Below, piece by piece: positions 48,133 to 53,989 of a stretch of DNA of 53,989 nt; positions within the stretch are counted from its first letter, which is position 1, and every line of letters begins with the position of its first letter. A program made the translations under genes and the position numbers. Location of the stretch: contig JAGPCC010000003.1 of assembly GCA_018058245.1 (NCBI GenBank), positions 1 to 53,989 on the forward strand. The letters run 5' to 3'. This stretch comes from Verrucomicrobiales bacterium. Lineage in GTDB: Bacteria; Verrucomicrobiota; Verrucomicrobiia; Verrucomicrobiales; DEV007. Below the pieces are notes generated by a model. That model had not been told where the DNA came from. It saw only the letters and a program-made list of their open reading frames with translations, and did no database searches.

Positions 48133-51100
48133 TCAATCTCCGAGACACATCACCTCACCACTGCGAGTGGTGAGAAAGACACGACCTTCAGCGATCGCGA
48201 GACCGTCCCAACTGACTGCGGGCACAGTGCGCTCGGCGAGAATACTCCCGTCCGTTGTATTCAAGATCTTGAGACGGCCGTCGTCGTGGCTTGCGTAGAG
48301 CCGCCCCCCTGCTGCCATTGCGAGGGCATTGATGTGATTGGCTAGTTGCTCTCCGGGCTTGACTGGCTCGGTTTTGCTCCCAGCTGCGGTGAACGGATCG
48401 ACCGTCCATTTCGCACCCTCGGCGATCCGGTAGGTGCGGAAGGGTTTTTCGCCTTTATTCCCCTTCTGGGCGGCTTCCCATCCGGTGATCCATTTTCCAT
48501 TGAACTTCTCAAGTCCCTCCGCATCAAAATCGCGACGGAAAAGATCGGTACTCCCATCCAACTGCCCGTAGACCTGCCCGTCATGAAAAACCACGAGGGG
48601 ACGATCCGGAGCCTCCCCGCGGAATCGATCCTGATGCCGGGCACCGTAGGTCCACGTTCCCCTCGGAACCCAGACGGCTCCCCCTCCCGTGTCGAGGCGG
48701 GCAAACGCGTTCCACTTATCGACATCGACTTTTTTGCCTTCCTCCGTGAGGAGCCAGCGGGACATCGCGATTCCGTCGCCCTCTTCATGCAAGATGTCGA
48801 TGGGATCGAACTCCAGCCCCGAGTTCTCGTAAAAACCTTCGTAGGGGTTCTTGAAAGTCGGATCTTCCTTGTGCGGGATCGTATCAATGCGCTGCGCCCA
48901 CTGCTTTACCCCGCTCATCGCATCAACCGCGACAACAAAGACACCACCGTCGGCAAGAGGCTGACGTCCCGCCACAAAATAGGCGGTCTCTCCCCGTACG
49001 AGGGTGGCACCCGGGACCGGCCAGGGGCTTTCCACCTGCCCAAAGGCGACAATACGCTCCTCACTCGGAGCAACTCGCATTTCCCAGACAAGCTCACCGG
49101 TGTCGGCCTTCACGGCATAGGCATAACCGGAATGGCACCCGAAAAGACAAAGTCCCCGATGAATCGTCGGCGGAGAGTCAACCCGTCCCCTCGCGGTGTA
49201 ACGCCACCTCTCGCTTCCGTCCGAGGAAGAAAGCGCGACGACTTCATGCGCATCGGGGCGGGCCACAAAAAGAGTCCCATTGGCGATGACAGGAGCACTC
49301 AAGACTCCTTTCACATACGGATTCTCTTTCCAGTCGCTCGCAATCGGCCCCGAGGGAACGGCGGCACCGTTCGCAATCTTCACGGACCATTTGGTATCGA
49401 GCGTTTCCGGGCCTTTCCCGGCATTGCTGCCACTGCGCCAGCGATCACCACGATAGGTCGGCCAGTCGCTTGCGTCGGCGATCGCCGCAGCTGGATCCGC
49501 CGAAGCAGTTCCTTTCCGCACCGGAAACTCGATCGACTCGACGGGTTTTCTCGCCACATCATCACGACCTTCGATCGCCGGGGCCATCGCGACAAATCCC
49601 CGCAACATCGGCCAGCAGGTGCAATGTTTCGGAGTCGTATATATCAGACCATTGGCCGGCACCCAACCGTTTTCACGGGAGCAATTCGCTTTTGTCATCC
49701 GGTTGGCGACGATTTCTCCCGAATTCATGTCGGTCAGGTCCATCACTCCGGCGAAGACATACTTCGGCGTCGCGACCGGAGGAAAACAGTGCGCCAGTCC
49801 CGCTGAATGCGTCTTTTTCGTCTCACCGGTTTTCGGATCGAGCGCGGACACTTCGATAAGGGAGCGAGTTGTCGTCTCTTTGGTCTCCGTATTCTCTTTT
49901 CCCCCGTGCAGGATCCAGAGATCGTCATCGGTAAACATGGCACGGGCCTGCCGATTGTGATTCATCCCTGGGGCAAAAATCTTCTCCCATTCGAGCGTAC
50001 CGCTCTCGCTCGACGCGAGATGCAGGGCATTCCCGGCGTCGTGATCACTCAACGAGGAGACTTCAAAGGCCATCTGACCGTCATGCATCACCGTGCGGTA
50101 AACGTGGTCGAGCCAGGGATATTCCGAGTTCTGCCACTTCAGCTTGCCGGAATAGAGATCGAGCGCGAGCACCTCAGATTTTTCACCCCGTTTGGGTCGC
50201 CCCCGGAGGAACGTCACCGTCTCAGACTCGGCCGCGAGATTCCGCGGATCCCCAGCCTCCTGGCGCCAGAGCATTTCCCCAGTCTCGACGCTGAAGGCGC
50301 ACACCTGATTCTCATCGGCCGCGACAACGATGTCCCGGTGCGAGATGATCTCGTCCGGTTCTTCGATTCCGTCGTAGATCCGCACGACCTCACCACTGAC
50401 CGCATTGAGCGCAGAAAACTTCCCTTTTACGACCGCAAAAACATACTTTGCCGAGGCTACGGGGCGGGCGCTCGTGTAGTTGAGCCGGGGCAGTCGAAAG
50501 TCGGCGTTGTTCAGAGTTCCCTTTTCGAGATCGTTGTCCCAAAGACGCAGGCCATTAAAACTGTCTCTCGCGAGGATGCCTCCGTAAAAATTTCGTCCCG
50601 CCTCAGTCACGAGCCCCTCGACCTCCTCGAGTGCGGCGGCGATCCATCGCACGCGTTCTGGTGGCCCCACCGTCGTATCGTGCGAAACGGGATTTCCATC
50701 CGCACCATGGCGAGGGTGCGACCAAGCGTCCATACCGGTAGGCCAGGGTTTGCGAGCAGTAAGACTTCCGTCCGCCCTGACCGTGATCTGTTCAAAACCC
50801 ACTACCTCCAGGGCTTCTTTTGTCAGCCGCTCGTCCACCCCTGCCTCTGCCACAAAGTGGCCCAAGGGAGTGATCACCCGGTGGATCTCTACCAGGGAAA
50901 GAGTCGATGGGGATCTCATCACGACCGCGTTCACGACATTCTCCGCATAGGGCAGATGAGCCGGATCCCGCAGAACCTCCGCAAATGCCATGCCGTAGCA
51001 CCCGTCCTTCCGCAAAGCCACCTGCGCCTTGTCGATGATCTTGACGTCTGGGTCGAGCAAATGAACGAGAAACCGCCCGCTCCGGCTCATCGTTGCCGCC

Positions 51101-51261
51101 TCTGCTGTCTCCGCAGCACCAATCTGCACCACGAGTCCGCCGTGAAGATCGACACCGAGTAGCGACGTGTCCGCAGCTCTCGCAAAGTATTGCGGAAAAT
51201 AGACCGCAGCCATCAGGAGAGAAACAAGGAACAATGATTGGGAATAACGAGGATCTCTCAT
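48133..51261 (-). CDS. Exported methyltransferase-like / PQQ-type beta-propeller fusion
   Basis: A 1042-residue protein with a signal peptide (MRDPRYSQSLFLVSLLMAAVYF). Residues about 35-170 have the Rossmann-like layout of a SAM methyltransferase (LHGGLVVQIGAAETAEAA, LVHLLDPDVKIIDKAQVALR, LPYAENVVNAVVM), but the glycine-rich SAM loop is degenerate. The rest is a large PQQ-binding-like propeller with blades such as FSVETGEMLWRQEAGD, VALSSSDGSERWRY and VKADTGELVWEMRV. Fusions of this kind occur in PVC bacteria; the role is not established. No PQQ-dependent catalytic site is evident. It is transcribed away from the ModA-ModA gene. Confidence 0.85.
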   Translation of the reverse strand: MRDPRYSQSLFLVSLLMAAVYFPQYFARAADTSLLGVDLHGGLVVQIGAAETAEAATMSRSGRFLVHLLDPDVKIIDKAQVALRKDGCYGMAFAEVLRDPAHLPYAENVVNAVVMRSPSTLSLVEIHRVITPLGHFVAEAGVDERLTKEALEVVGFEQITVRADGSLTARKPWPTGMDAWSHPRHGADGNPVSHDTTVGPPERVRWIAAALEEVEGLVTEAGRNFYGGILARDSFNGLRLWDNDLEKGTLNNADFRLPRLNYTSARPVASAKYVFAVVKGKFSALNAVSGEVVRIYDGIEEPDEIISHRDIVVAADENQVCAFSVETGEMLWRQEAGDPRNLAAESETVTFLRGRPKRGEKSEVLALDLYSGKLKWQNSEYPWLDHVYRTVMHDGQMAFEVSSLSDHDAGNALHLASSESGTLEWEKIFAPGMNHNRQARAMFTDDDLWILHGGKENTETKETTTRSLIEVSALDPKTGETKKTHSAGLAHCFPPVATPKYVFAGVMDLTDMNSGEIVANRMTKANCSRENGWVPANGLIYTTPKHCTCWPMLRGFVAMAPAIEGRDDVARKPVESIEFPVRKGTASADPAAAIADASDWPTYRGDRWRSGSNAGKGPETLDTKWSVKIANGAAVPSGPIASDWKENPYVKGVLSAPVIANGTLFVARPDAHEVVALSSSDGSERWRYTARGRVDSPPTIHRGLCLFGCHSGYAYAVKADTGELVWEMRVAPSEERIVAFGQVESPWPVPGATLVRGETAYFVAGRQPLADGGVFVVAVDAMSGVKQWAQRIDTIPHKEDPTFKNPYEGFYENSGLEFDPIDILHEEGDGIAMSRWLLTEEGKKVDVDKWNAFARLDTGGGAVWVPRGTWTYGARHQDRFRGEAPDRPLVVFHDGQVYGQLDGSTDLFRRDFDAEGLEKFNGKWITGWEAAQKGNKGEKPFRTYRIAEGAKWTVDPFTAAGSKTEPVKPGEQLANHINALAMAAGGRLYASHDDGRLKILNTTDGSILAERTVPAVSWDGLAIAEGRVFLTTRSGEVMCLGD

Positions 51262-51411: not shown

Positions 51412-52929
51412 ATGTCCCCCCGCCGAAATCCTGTCCTCCGCATCATTCTTTTTGCGATCTTCCTCGCCGGAGGAGCGATCTGGCTGCTGACCTCCCTGTG
51501 GCGGCAGGACAATCGCCGCGCAGACGCCGGGAGCGAGGTGATCACCCTGCATTGTGCCGCCGGACTCTCAAAACCCGTCCAACGCATCGCCGAAGCCTAC
51601 GAAAAAGAAACCGGCCACCGCATCAATCTGCAATTCGGTGGCTCTGGCACGCTCCTGAGCGGATTGCAGGTCTCCCAACAGGGCGATCTCTTCCTCGCTG
51701 CCGATGAGAGCTACACCACGCAGGGACGGGAAAAGGGACTCATCCGCGAGGTCCTCCCCGTTGCGACTCTCACCCCAGTCATCGCCGTAAAGAAGGGAAA
51801 TCCAAAATCCATCACCGGACTCGCCGACCTCGTGCGGGAGGATGTGCGACTCTCCCTCGGCGACCCCCAAGCTGCTGCGATCGGACAAATTTCCAAAGCA
51901 ATCTTCACCGAAGCCGGACTCTGGGAAAAAGTCGAAACCGCCGTTCAGGACCGTGGAGTCTTTGGTGCGACCGTGAATGGTCTCGCGACCGACCTCACCG
52001 CCGGACCGATTGATGCCACGATCATCTGGAGCGCGGTCGCAGATCAGTTTGAGAAATCGGAGGCTCTACCCCTCGATCTCGGGAAACAACACACCCGTCT
52101 CGTCTCCCTCGGAGTTCTCACGGCGACGAAACACCCCGCAGCTGCGCTCCATTTTGCACGCTATCTCACGGCAAAGGATAGAGGATTGCCCCTTTTCACC
52201 GAAGATGGATTTGCCGCCGTCGCGGGTGATGTCTGGGCGAATACACCGGAACTGACCCTCTTTAGTGGAGGAGTCAACAGGGTTGCGATCGAAGAGACGG
52301 TCCGCGAATTCGAAGCGCGGGAAGGAGTGCGCGTCACCACAGTCTACAACGGCTGCGGTATTCTCGTAAGCCAGATGAGAGGAGGCGCACGGCCCGATGC
52401 CTATCTCGCCTGCGACACAACCTATATGAACGATGTGCAGTCTCTCTTTGCCCCTTCCCAGCTCGTCTCCTCGACAAACATGGTCATCATCACCGCCCCG
52501 GGGAATCCAAAACAAATCAAAACCCTCGCAGATCTCGGAAAAAAAGGAGTTCGCGTTGCGATCACCAATCCTGAATACAGCGCCCTCGGAGGCCTGACTC
52601 ATAATCTCCTCCGTGCTACCAATCTCTTTGATGCAGTCATGCCCAATGTCACCTATGGCGATGCCCCCACCGCCGATGCGGTCGTAACGCGAGTCCGCAC
52701 TGCACGAGAAGATGCCGGGATCGTCTATCGCGCAAACACCATCGGACTCGGGGTCGACCTCCAGATCCTGGAAATCGACGATCCCCGCGCCACCGCCTCG
52801 CAGCCGGTAGCGATCGGCCGAGAGACCCCCTACCCCCACCTCATGGCACGACTCGTCGCCGCGATCACCGGAGAGACTTCCAGAGAACGCTATCGCAACG
52901 CAGGCTTCGATTTCCTCTTCAAAAAGTGA
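51412..52929 (+). CDS. Tandem ModA-ModA substrate-binding protein, membrane anchored
   Basis: A 505-residue protein with one N-terminal membrane helix (VLRIILFAIFLAGGAIWLL), followed by two ModA-like periplasmic binding domains. The first (about 42-270) contains LHCAAGLSKPVQRIAEAYE, FGGSGTLLSGLQVSQQGDLF and AADESYTTQ. The second (about 275-505) contains FSGGVNRVAIEETVREFEA, VYNGCGILVSQMRGGARPDA and ACDTTYMND. Single-domain ModA is the norm, so this is a gene fusion or duplication. The halves differ clearly, so it is old. The ATG at 51412 begins the anchor. It is coupled to modB by TGATG. Confidence 0.88.
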   Translation: MSPRRNPVLRIILFAIFLAGGAIWLLTSLWRQDNRRADAGSEVITLHCAAGLSKPVQRIAEAYEKETGHRINLQFGGSGTLLSGLQVSQQGDLFLAADESYTTQGREKGLIREVLPVATLTPVIAVKKGNPKSITGLADLVREDVRLSLGDPQAAAIGQISKAIFTEAGLWEKVETAVQDRGVFGATVNGLATDLTAGPIDATIIWSAVADQFEKSEALPLDLGKQHTRLVSLGVLTATKHPAAALHFARYLTAKDRGLPLFTEDGFAAVAGDVWANTPELTLFSGGVNRVAIEETVREFEAREGVRVTTVYNGCGILVSQMRGGARPDAYLACDTTYMNDVQSLFAPSQLVSSTNMVIITAPGNPKQIKTLADLGKKGVRVAITNPEYSALGGLTHNLLRATNLFDAVMPNVTYGDAPTADAVVTRVRTAREDAGIVYRANTIGLGVDLQILEIDDPRATASQPVAIGRETPYPHLMARLVAAITGETSRERYRNAGFDFLFKK

Positions 52930-53750
52930 TGGCCCGCGCCCTGTCTCCCCACCGCCCCTGGCCGGGATGGCCTCTCTACGCGGCTCTAGGTCTCCTCGGC
53001 GGATTCTACGTGCTCCTCCTCGTCGCGCTGATCCTCTCCCTCTTCCTTGCTGACGGACTCTTCTCCCCCGGGGAAGCTCTCGCCTTCCTGAACACTCCGC
53101 CGATCCGCTACGCTCTCGCCCTCACCCTTGGTTCGACGGTCCTCACCGCCATCCTTTCCGTCCTCTTCGCCGTTCCCATCGGCTACCTCATGAGCCGGTT
53201 TCGTTTTCCGGGAAAAAACTTCCTCGATGCCCTCCTCGACGTTCCCATCGTTCTGCCCCCGCTCGTGGTCGGGCTCGCCCTGCTCCTCTTTTTCATGACC
53301 CCGATCGGACAGGCAATCGAGTCCGTCATTCCTGTCACCTATGCCATTCCCAGCGTCGTTCTCGCCCAGCTCACCGTTGCGGCCGCCTTTGCGGTCCGGC
53401 TCATGCGCAGTGTCTTCGAACAGATCGATCCACGCTGCGAACAAGTCGCTTTGACGCTCGGTTGCTCACCCGGGCAGGCTTTTCGCAAAGTCGTCCTCCC
53501 CCAGGCCGCTAGCGGCATCGTAACCGCGTGGACCCTCGCGTGGGCGCGAGCCCTCGGAGAGTTCGGCCCCGTCCTGCTCTTTGCGGGAGCGACCCGATTC
53601 CGCACCGAAGTGCTCCCTACCACGATCTTTCTCGAAATGAGCGTTGGCAATCTCGAGGGAGCCGTCGCCATCTCCATCCTCATGGTCCTCGTCGCGATGA
53701 TCGTGCTCATCCTCATCCGTGCCGGAGGCGGAAATCTTCGCGGAGCCTGA
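52929..53750 (+). CDS. modB: Molybdate-type ABC transporter permease
   Basis: A 273-residue inner-membrane permease with about six helices. It has the ModB/CysT pattern: IGYLMSRFRFPGKNFLDALL, then DVPIVLPPLVVGLALLLFF, and the ATPase-contact loop LGCSPGQAFRKVVLPQAAS, followed by ARALGEFGPVLLFAGAT. The ATG at 52929 overlaps the ModA-ModA stop by one base (TGATG); a GTG one codon earlier is possible. Together with its neighbours it should import molybdate or tungstate; sulfate is less likely because there is one permease only. Confidence 0.88.
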   Translation: MARALSPHRPWPGWPLYAALGLLGGFYVLLLVALILSLFLADGLFSPGEALAFLNTPPIRYALALTLGSTVLTAILSVLFAVPIGYLMSRFRFPGKNFLDALLDVPIVLPPLVVGLALLLFFMTPIGQAIESVIPVTYAIPSVVLAQLTVAAAFAVRLMRSVFEQIDPRCEQVALTLGCSPGQAFRKVVLPQAASGIVTAWTLAWARALGEFGPVLLFAGATRFRTEVLPTTIFLEMSVGNLEGAVAISILMVLVAMIVLILIRAGGGNLRGA

Positions 53751-53754
53751 ACCG

Positions 53755-53989
53755 ATGATCACATTTGACCAAGTCGCCATCGCCCAGGGGAACTTCCAGT
53801 TGGAGAACATTTCCTTCGAACTGCCGGAAAATGCCTACGCCGTCCTCATGGGAAAAACCGGCTGCGGCAAGACCACCCTCCTCGAGATTCTCTGCGGACT
53901 ACGTAAACCGACCCGGGGAATTGTGCGTATCGCCGGTGGCGCCATCACCCGGGTGCAGCCCGGTGCCCGCCAGATCGGCTACGTACCGC
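53755..53989 (+). CDS. ABC transporter ATP-binding protein, partial (ModC-like)
   Basis: The frame starts with ATG four bases after the modB stop and runs off the window end. 78 codons are visible: MITFDQVAIAQGNFQLENIS, then the Walker A motif MGKTGCGKTTLLEILCG and a Q-loop start at QIGYVP. It is very probably the energising ATPase for the ModA-ModA/ModB importer, like ModC or WtpC. The C-terminal regulatory domain cannot be judged. Confidence 0.88.
   Translation, partial: MITFDQVAIAQGNFQLENISFELPENAYAVLMGKTGCGKTTLLEILCGLRKPTRGIVRIAGGAITRVQPGARQIGYVP

Follow-up and report, generated by a model that had tools for sequence, protein, structure and literature searches.

Tandem substrate-binding proteins (SBPs) and ModA have both been described. 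In GlnPQ (PDB 6h30), two tethered substrate-binding domains of different specificity compete for one translocator (PMC8025302); these domains recognize amino acids, are part of the same chain as the permease and are connected by a flexible 14-residue linker. The ligand residues and loops of the P. aeruginosa ModA have been described (PMC9171197), and the tungstate importers WtpABC and TupABC are known as single-headed systems. The window, by which we mean the whole 53,989-nucleotide stretch of Verrucomicrobiales DNA that was analysed, ends in a locus that shares features with each of them (Table 1). It resembles ModABC (E. coli ModA, PDB 1amf and 1wod; TIGR01256) in that both domains of its binding protein have the fold and family membership of ModA, next to a ModB-like permease and an ABC ATPase. 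Unlike in ModABC, two heads are carried on one tethered chain. The likeness to GlnPQ lies in the two non-identical tandem SBPs that accompany one translocator. Here, however, the binding protein is an ORF separate from that of the permease, has its own transmembrane (TM) helix or lipobox, and contains a GDxWxxxP linker of invariant length. In the open-licence literature that we searched, we found no tandem ModA whose second pocket carries cysteines. Our results favour, with a probability of roughly 0.6, a GlnPQ-like two-headed importer in which the first domain (D1) is ModA-like and the second (D2) has been rebuilt for a separate, thiol-related extracytoplasmic role, exercised together with an undescribed secreted protein that bears an invariant C-x-C motif (CxC protein).

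Table 1. Features at the end of the window (positions are those of the window)
Feature	Position	Strand	Remarks
PQQ-like beta-propeller protein, divergent neighbour	48133..51261	-	1042 aa; as a family, flanks many fused loci
Two-headed ModA-like binding protein	51412..52929	+	505 aa; one open frame, no internal stop
Domain 1 (D1), ModA-like	51535..52218	+	alignment to E. coli ModA
Domain 2 (D2), ModA fold	52246..52926	+	alignment to E. coli ModA
ModB/NifC-like ABC permease	52929..53750	+	273 aa; ATG overlaps the binding-protein stop codon
ABC ATPase, first 78 aa only	53755..53989	+	contig end at 53989; relatives' ATPases are 212-219 aa without TOBE domain

The primary structure of the binding protein was examined in detail. 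The ATG at 51412 agrees with the N-termini of its relatives; an alternative start, the TTG at 51238, would give a 563-aa frame. The protein consists of a TM anchor (aa 7-37), which is an N-terminal membrane helix with no lipobox, D1 (aa ~41-271), the linker GDVWANTPE (aa 272-280) and D2 (aa ~277-505). Across 36 aligned proteins the tether is kept, either as a TM helix or as a lipobox, and the length of the GDxWxxxP linker is invariant in all 36. A sequence-only reading of this DNA had proposed two distinct ModA-like domains behind one anchor and with one permease, and this was borne out. Pfam SBP_bac_11 matched the protein twice (276 bits in total; 164.6 and 116.8 bits per domain in the genome search). 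With TIGR01256 modA, whose cut-off is 62.5 bits, the first half scored 73.9 bits, the second 62.4 bits, a hair below the cut-off, and the whole chain 131.3 bits. An AF2 model, calculated from a 36-sequence alignment, displayed a mean pLDDT of 92.9 and a pTM of 0.83, and its structure alignment to ModA gave Z values of ~23 for D2 and ~21 for D1. In this model each half is a complete bilobal fold of the ModA type. WtpA was among the fold matches, and the whole-chain Foldseek alignment reached the GlnPQ tandem.

Full-length tandem relatives numbered at least 40 and were present in Verrucomicrobiota, Planctomycetota and Bacteroidota, with identities to the window protein of 38-67% and one exception at 33%. 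The organisms bearing them include the isolate Snuella sedimenti. As the fusion recurs in three phyla, an assembly chimera was ruled out. The sequence-only reading had left room for the fusion being already described as common in this phylum. The first half of this applies to some extent, as we recovered the tandem from 21 of the 387 genomes sampled across the phylum and from 11 of 34 in the genus; as for the second, we found no description in the open-licence literature. In a tree of 128 domains that included both halves, the D1s of the main fusion fell into one clade (100/99) and the D2s into another (100/100). The separation of the two clades argues that one old duplication preceded one main fusion. 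Within the genus, one locus carries separate D2-like and D1-like genes (L094), and two others carry D1 alone (L095 and L096). These split versions are regarded as secondary because they are nested within the D1 and D2 clades. Named Verrucomicrobiota loci are interspersed in this tree among those of the sampled genomes of the window's phylum, which agrees with its assignment to Verrucomicrobiota. In distant lineages we found two adjacent single-domain SBP genes ahead of one ModB (for example L161, L163, L138 and L083), along with further fusions in a few loci (L021, L081, L162, L165 and L167). From these two-gene and fused systems, we therefore consider two binding proteins per permease to be the general theme.

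Three other arrangements were encountered during the survey. In L140 (3393-6723, minus strand), three consecutive SBP_bac_11 genes lie ahead of one ModB-like permease. In L102 (11948-13468, plus strand), a second Mod-type importer adjoins the same cluster, its binding protein and permease apparently forming one ORF of 506 aa. The genome of the window itself apparently harbours a different tandem binding protein of 725 aa with two fused SBP_bac_11-matching domains (L003:1225-3402, minus strand); assigned by eye, these domains look like PotD and the adjacent gene encodes a histidine-kinase-like sensor.

Because the contig ends inside the ATPase gene, the three-gene operon is only partly visible in the window. 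The nearest relative (locus L098), whose SBP is 67% identical, displays the intact order SBP, ModB, ATPase (217 aa) and ThiF/MoeB. The window permease scored 154.1 bits against TIGR02141 modB, below the cut-off of 182.6, and the permeases of three relatives were likewise below it. Against the NCBIfam models of WtpB and TupB, the scores were 132.7 (cut-off 340) and 66.7 (cut-off 320). For the ATPases of full-length relatives, the best NCBIfam model was WtpC, with at most 223 bits against a cut-off of 440, and a TOBE domain, which E. coli ModC possesses, was not found in the ATPases of three relatives. We did not file the system as ModABC because the permease and ATPase lie below the ModB, ModC, Wtp and Tup cut-offs and the ATPases of the relatives have no TOBE domain. 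A ModB homolog was present on 38 of 44 fused loci. In three genomes without ModB beside the SBP (G187, G199 and G234), loss of the permease was ruled out, as a ModB with 54-59% identity is encoded elsewhere in each genome.

The pockets of the two heads were then compared with that of ModA. Positions were numbered by sequence alignment to E. coli ModA (from NC_000913), supplemented with profile alignments. Ser12, Ser39 and Tyr170, which we take to be ligands in E. coli ModA, are not conserved as a set in either head, and most D1 domains, like every D2, have another residue in place of Ser12. D1 has Gly at the position of Ser12 in 37 of 46 sequences (Gly51 in the window protein), Ser or Thr at Ser39 in all 46 (Ser78), Lys or Arg at Thr14 in 39 (Ser53 in the window protein), Trp at Tyr170 in 36 (Trp206) and a near-invariant Cys at Ala9 in 43 (Cys48). 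D2, in contrast to the Ser/Thr of D1, has Cys at Ser39 in 43 of 43 sequences (Cys315). Cys at Ala58 (Cys334) and Asp59 (Asp335) are equally invariant, Arg is found at Thr14 in 42 (Arg290), Val or Met takes the place of Ser12, and Tyr is retained at Tyr170 in 39 (Tyr439). Among the distant systems with two SBP genes, the outer partner has His at position 58 (6/6). An Arg residue, Arg118, matters for oxyanion selectivity in TupA (PMC5517513); the Arg in D2 aligns with Thr14 of ModA.

We then surveyed the neighbouring genes by clustering and HMM searches. On 44 fused loci, which are of unequal length and in several cases end at contig ends, and with HMMs partly built from these loci themselves, we found the CxC protein on 28, ThiF/MoeB on 22, a four-cysteine PQQ-like beta-propeller on 19, a MoaD-like protein on 17 and an FtsX-type permease on 13. 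HMM searches of the flanks of 12 control loci with a single ModA gave no CxC, FtsX or propeller. In the propeller of the window, Cys492, Cys527, Cys547 and Cys549 are invariant throughout the aligned family. Proteins of the CxC family are secreted and often carry a TM helix at the C-terminus; the Cys that follows the signal peptide is invariant, as is the C-x-C. The family had no match in Pfam and no sequence match in the PDB, and a Foldseek search returned nothing below an E value of 0.001. VIA-align retrieved only thioredoxin-like folds, with Z up to 8.1, and we tentatively assign the family to this fold. The CxC copy in the genome of the window lies on another contig, at a locus (L151:9314-10477 and L151:8058-9317, both on the minus strand) where it adjoins a permease of the FtsX type and an ABC ATPase of 219 aa. 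Two branches share the operon, for example with the order CxC-FtsX-ATPase-fused SBP-ModB in L162 and CxC-SBP-SBP-ModB in L161.

The distribution of the CxC protein followed that of D2. Of the 34 genomes of the genus, 13 have both domains, fused in 11 and split in 2, and CxC was found in precisely these 13 and in none of the 21 others (p = 1e-9, uncorrected for kinship); a genome with D1 only (G406) has no CxC. Among the 387 genomes of the phylum, CxC was found in 44, which comprise all 21 with the fusion, all 13 with distant relatives, none of the four with a single D1-like SBP and 10 of the remaining 349 (uncorrected for phylogeny). In 11 of the 13 genomes with distant relatives, two SBP domains were seen side by side or fused. 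MoaE was distributed differently, being present in 14 of 21 fused genomes, 0 of 13 with distant relatives and 4 of 4 with a single D1-like SBP.

The first alternative to be considered is that the system is an ordinary importer which supplies molybdate or tungstate for Moco. Its two high-affinity heads would either take one oxyanion each or both take the same one, improving capture at low concentrations. Both halves are nearest to ModA in sequence and fold, MoaD- and MoeB-like genes adjoin many fused loci, and MoaE is enriched in the fused genomes (14/21 against 91/366, p = 1e-4, uncorrected for phylogeny). Nevertheless, MoaE is absent from 7 of the 21, and four of these genomes (G029, G139, G214 and G321; completeness 90-97%) gave no MoaC, MoeA or PF00384 either, which rules out Moco as the sole purpose in at least four genomes. 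The corresponding loci (L126, L129, L142 and L143) contain neither MoaD nor ThiF, as would be expected if such genes follow Moco use. In terms of tungsten, the AOR family (PF02730) was found in 5 of 387 genomes, none of them fused. Also against this alternative are the replacement of Ser12, the substitution of Ser39 by Cys in every D2, and the partner ATPases without the TOBE domain of ModC. Taking these points into account, we regard an ordinary importer as unlikely, perhaps one chance in four. The simplest account is that MoaD and MoeB follow Moco use, and that D2 and CxC belong together with or without Moco. The presence of MoaD and MoeB beside many loci still points to molybdenum or tungsten in those species. 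With regard to the sequence-only reading, the functional divergence that it had suspected between the halves is supported by their separate clades, their clade-specific pocket residues and a co-occurrence partner of D2 unlike that of single ModA. Its suggestion of molybdate and tungstate as the two ligands does not hold as stated, considering the loss of Ser12 in most sequences of both halves, the Cys at Ser39 in D2, the lack of AOR in any sampled fused genome and the four fused genomes without findable Moco genes or enzymes.

Less probable still is that D2 is a structural or redox element rather than a capture head. Its Cys pair would then act as a disulfide or metal site that is exchanged with CxC, and D2 would regulate or mature D1 or the permease. 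The invariant Cys pair, the conserved GDxW of the linker and the strict co-occurrence with a thioredoxin-like protein that has its own invariant C-x-C would all suit such a role. On the other hand, D2 has kept a full bilobal fold and further residues of the cleft, among them Asp59 and Tyr170, and in the distant systems, where the two SBPs are separate genes, one would less readily expect a structural element on a tether.

We thus return to the two-headed importer with a rebuilt D2. The system would belong to the type I ABC importers of the molybdate/tungstate/sulfate superfamily, with a single membrane tether holding two heads that are not equivalent. Each of these would close on its own ligand, and D1 and D2 would alternate in docking on one ModB-like homodimer, as do the substrate-binding domains of GlnPQ; the short linker of invariant length may hinder independent docking. 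D1 most likely retains a ModA-like oxyanion role. D2 probably captures a ligand different from plain molybdate, because it has an invariant Cys pair and is accompanied by CxC instead of the Moco pathway. With two Cys residues, an Asp and an Arg at predicted cleft positions, its ligand is most likely a thiol-reactive compound, or a soft metal or thio-oxyanion. D2 would be functionally paired with the secreted CxC protein and more loosely tied to the FtsX-type ABC transporter and the four-cysteine propeller.

These results raise a broader possibility, to which we give somewhat less than even odds, that D2, CxC, the FtsX-type ABC transporter and the propeller constitute an undescribed extracytoplasmic system for handling thiols or metals in Verrucomicrobiota, Planctomycetota and Bacteroidota. 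D2 would capture a cysteine-ligated ligand (a thio-oxyanion or soft metal, for instance), and the system would be free of pterin cofactor in the genomes without Moco. Automatic annotation is likely to name the family "molybdate ABC transporter substrate-binding protein", as the first half passes the NCBI modA model, and such a name is then likely to be taken as a sign that the organism uses molybdenum. Should the ligand of the second head be a different one, that conclusion would fail for a widespread group. The exact coincidence of D2 and CxC across genomes provides a concrete handle on a functionally undescribed system with a secreted cysteine protein.

Two further features of the surroundings were noticed by eye. 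The N-terminal part of the window propeller resembles a methyltransferase-type domain. In L011, L111 and L113, a TauE/SafE-like permease, assigned as one sequence cluster, lies near the fused locus.
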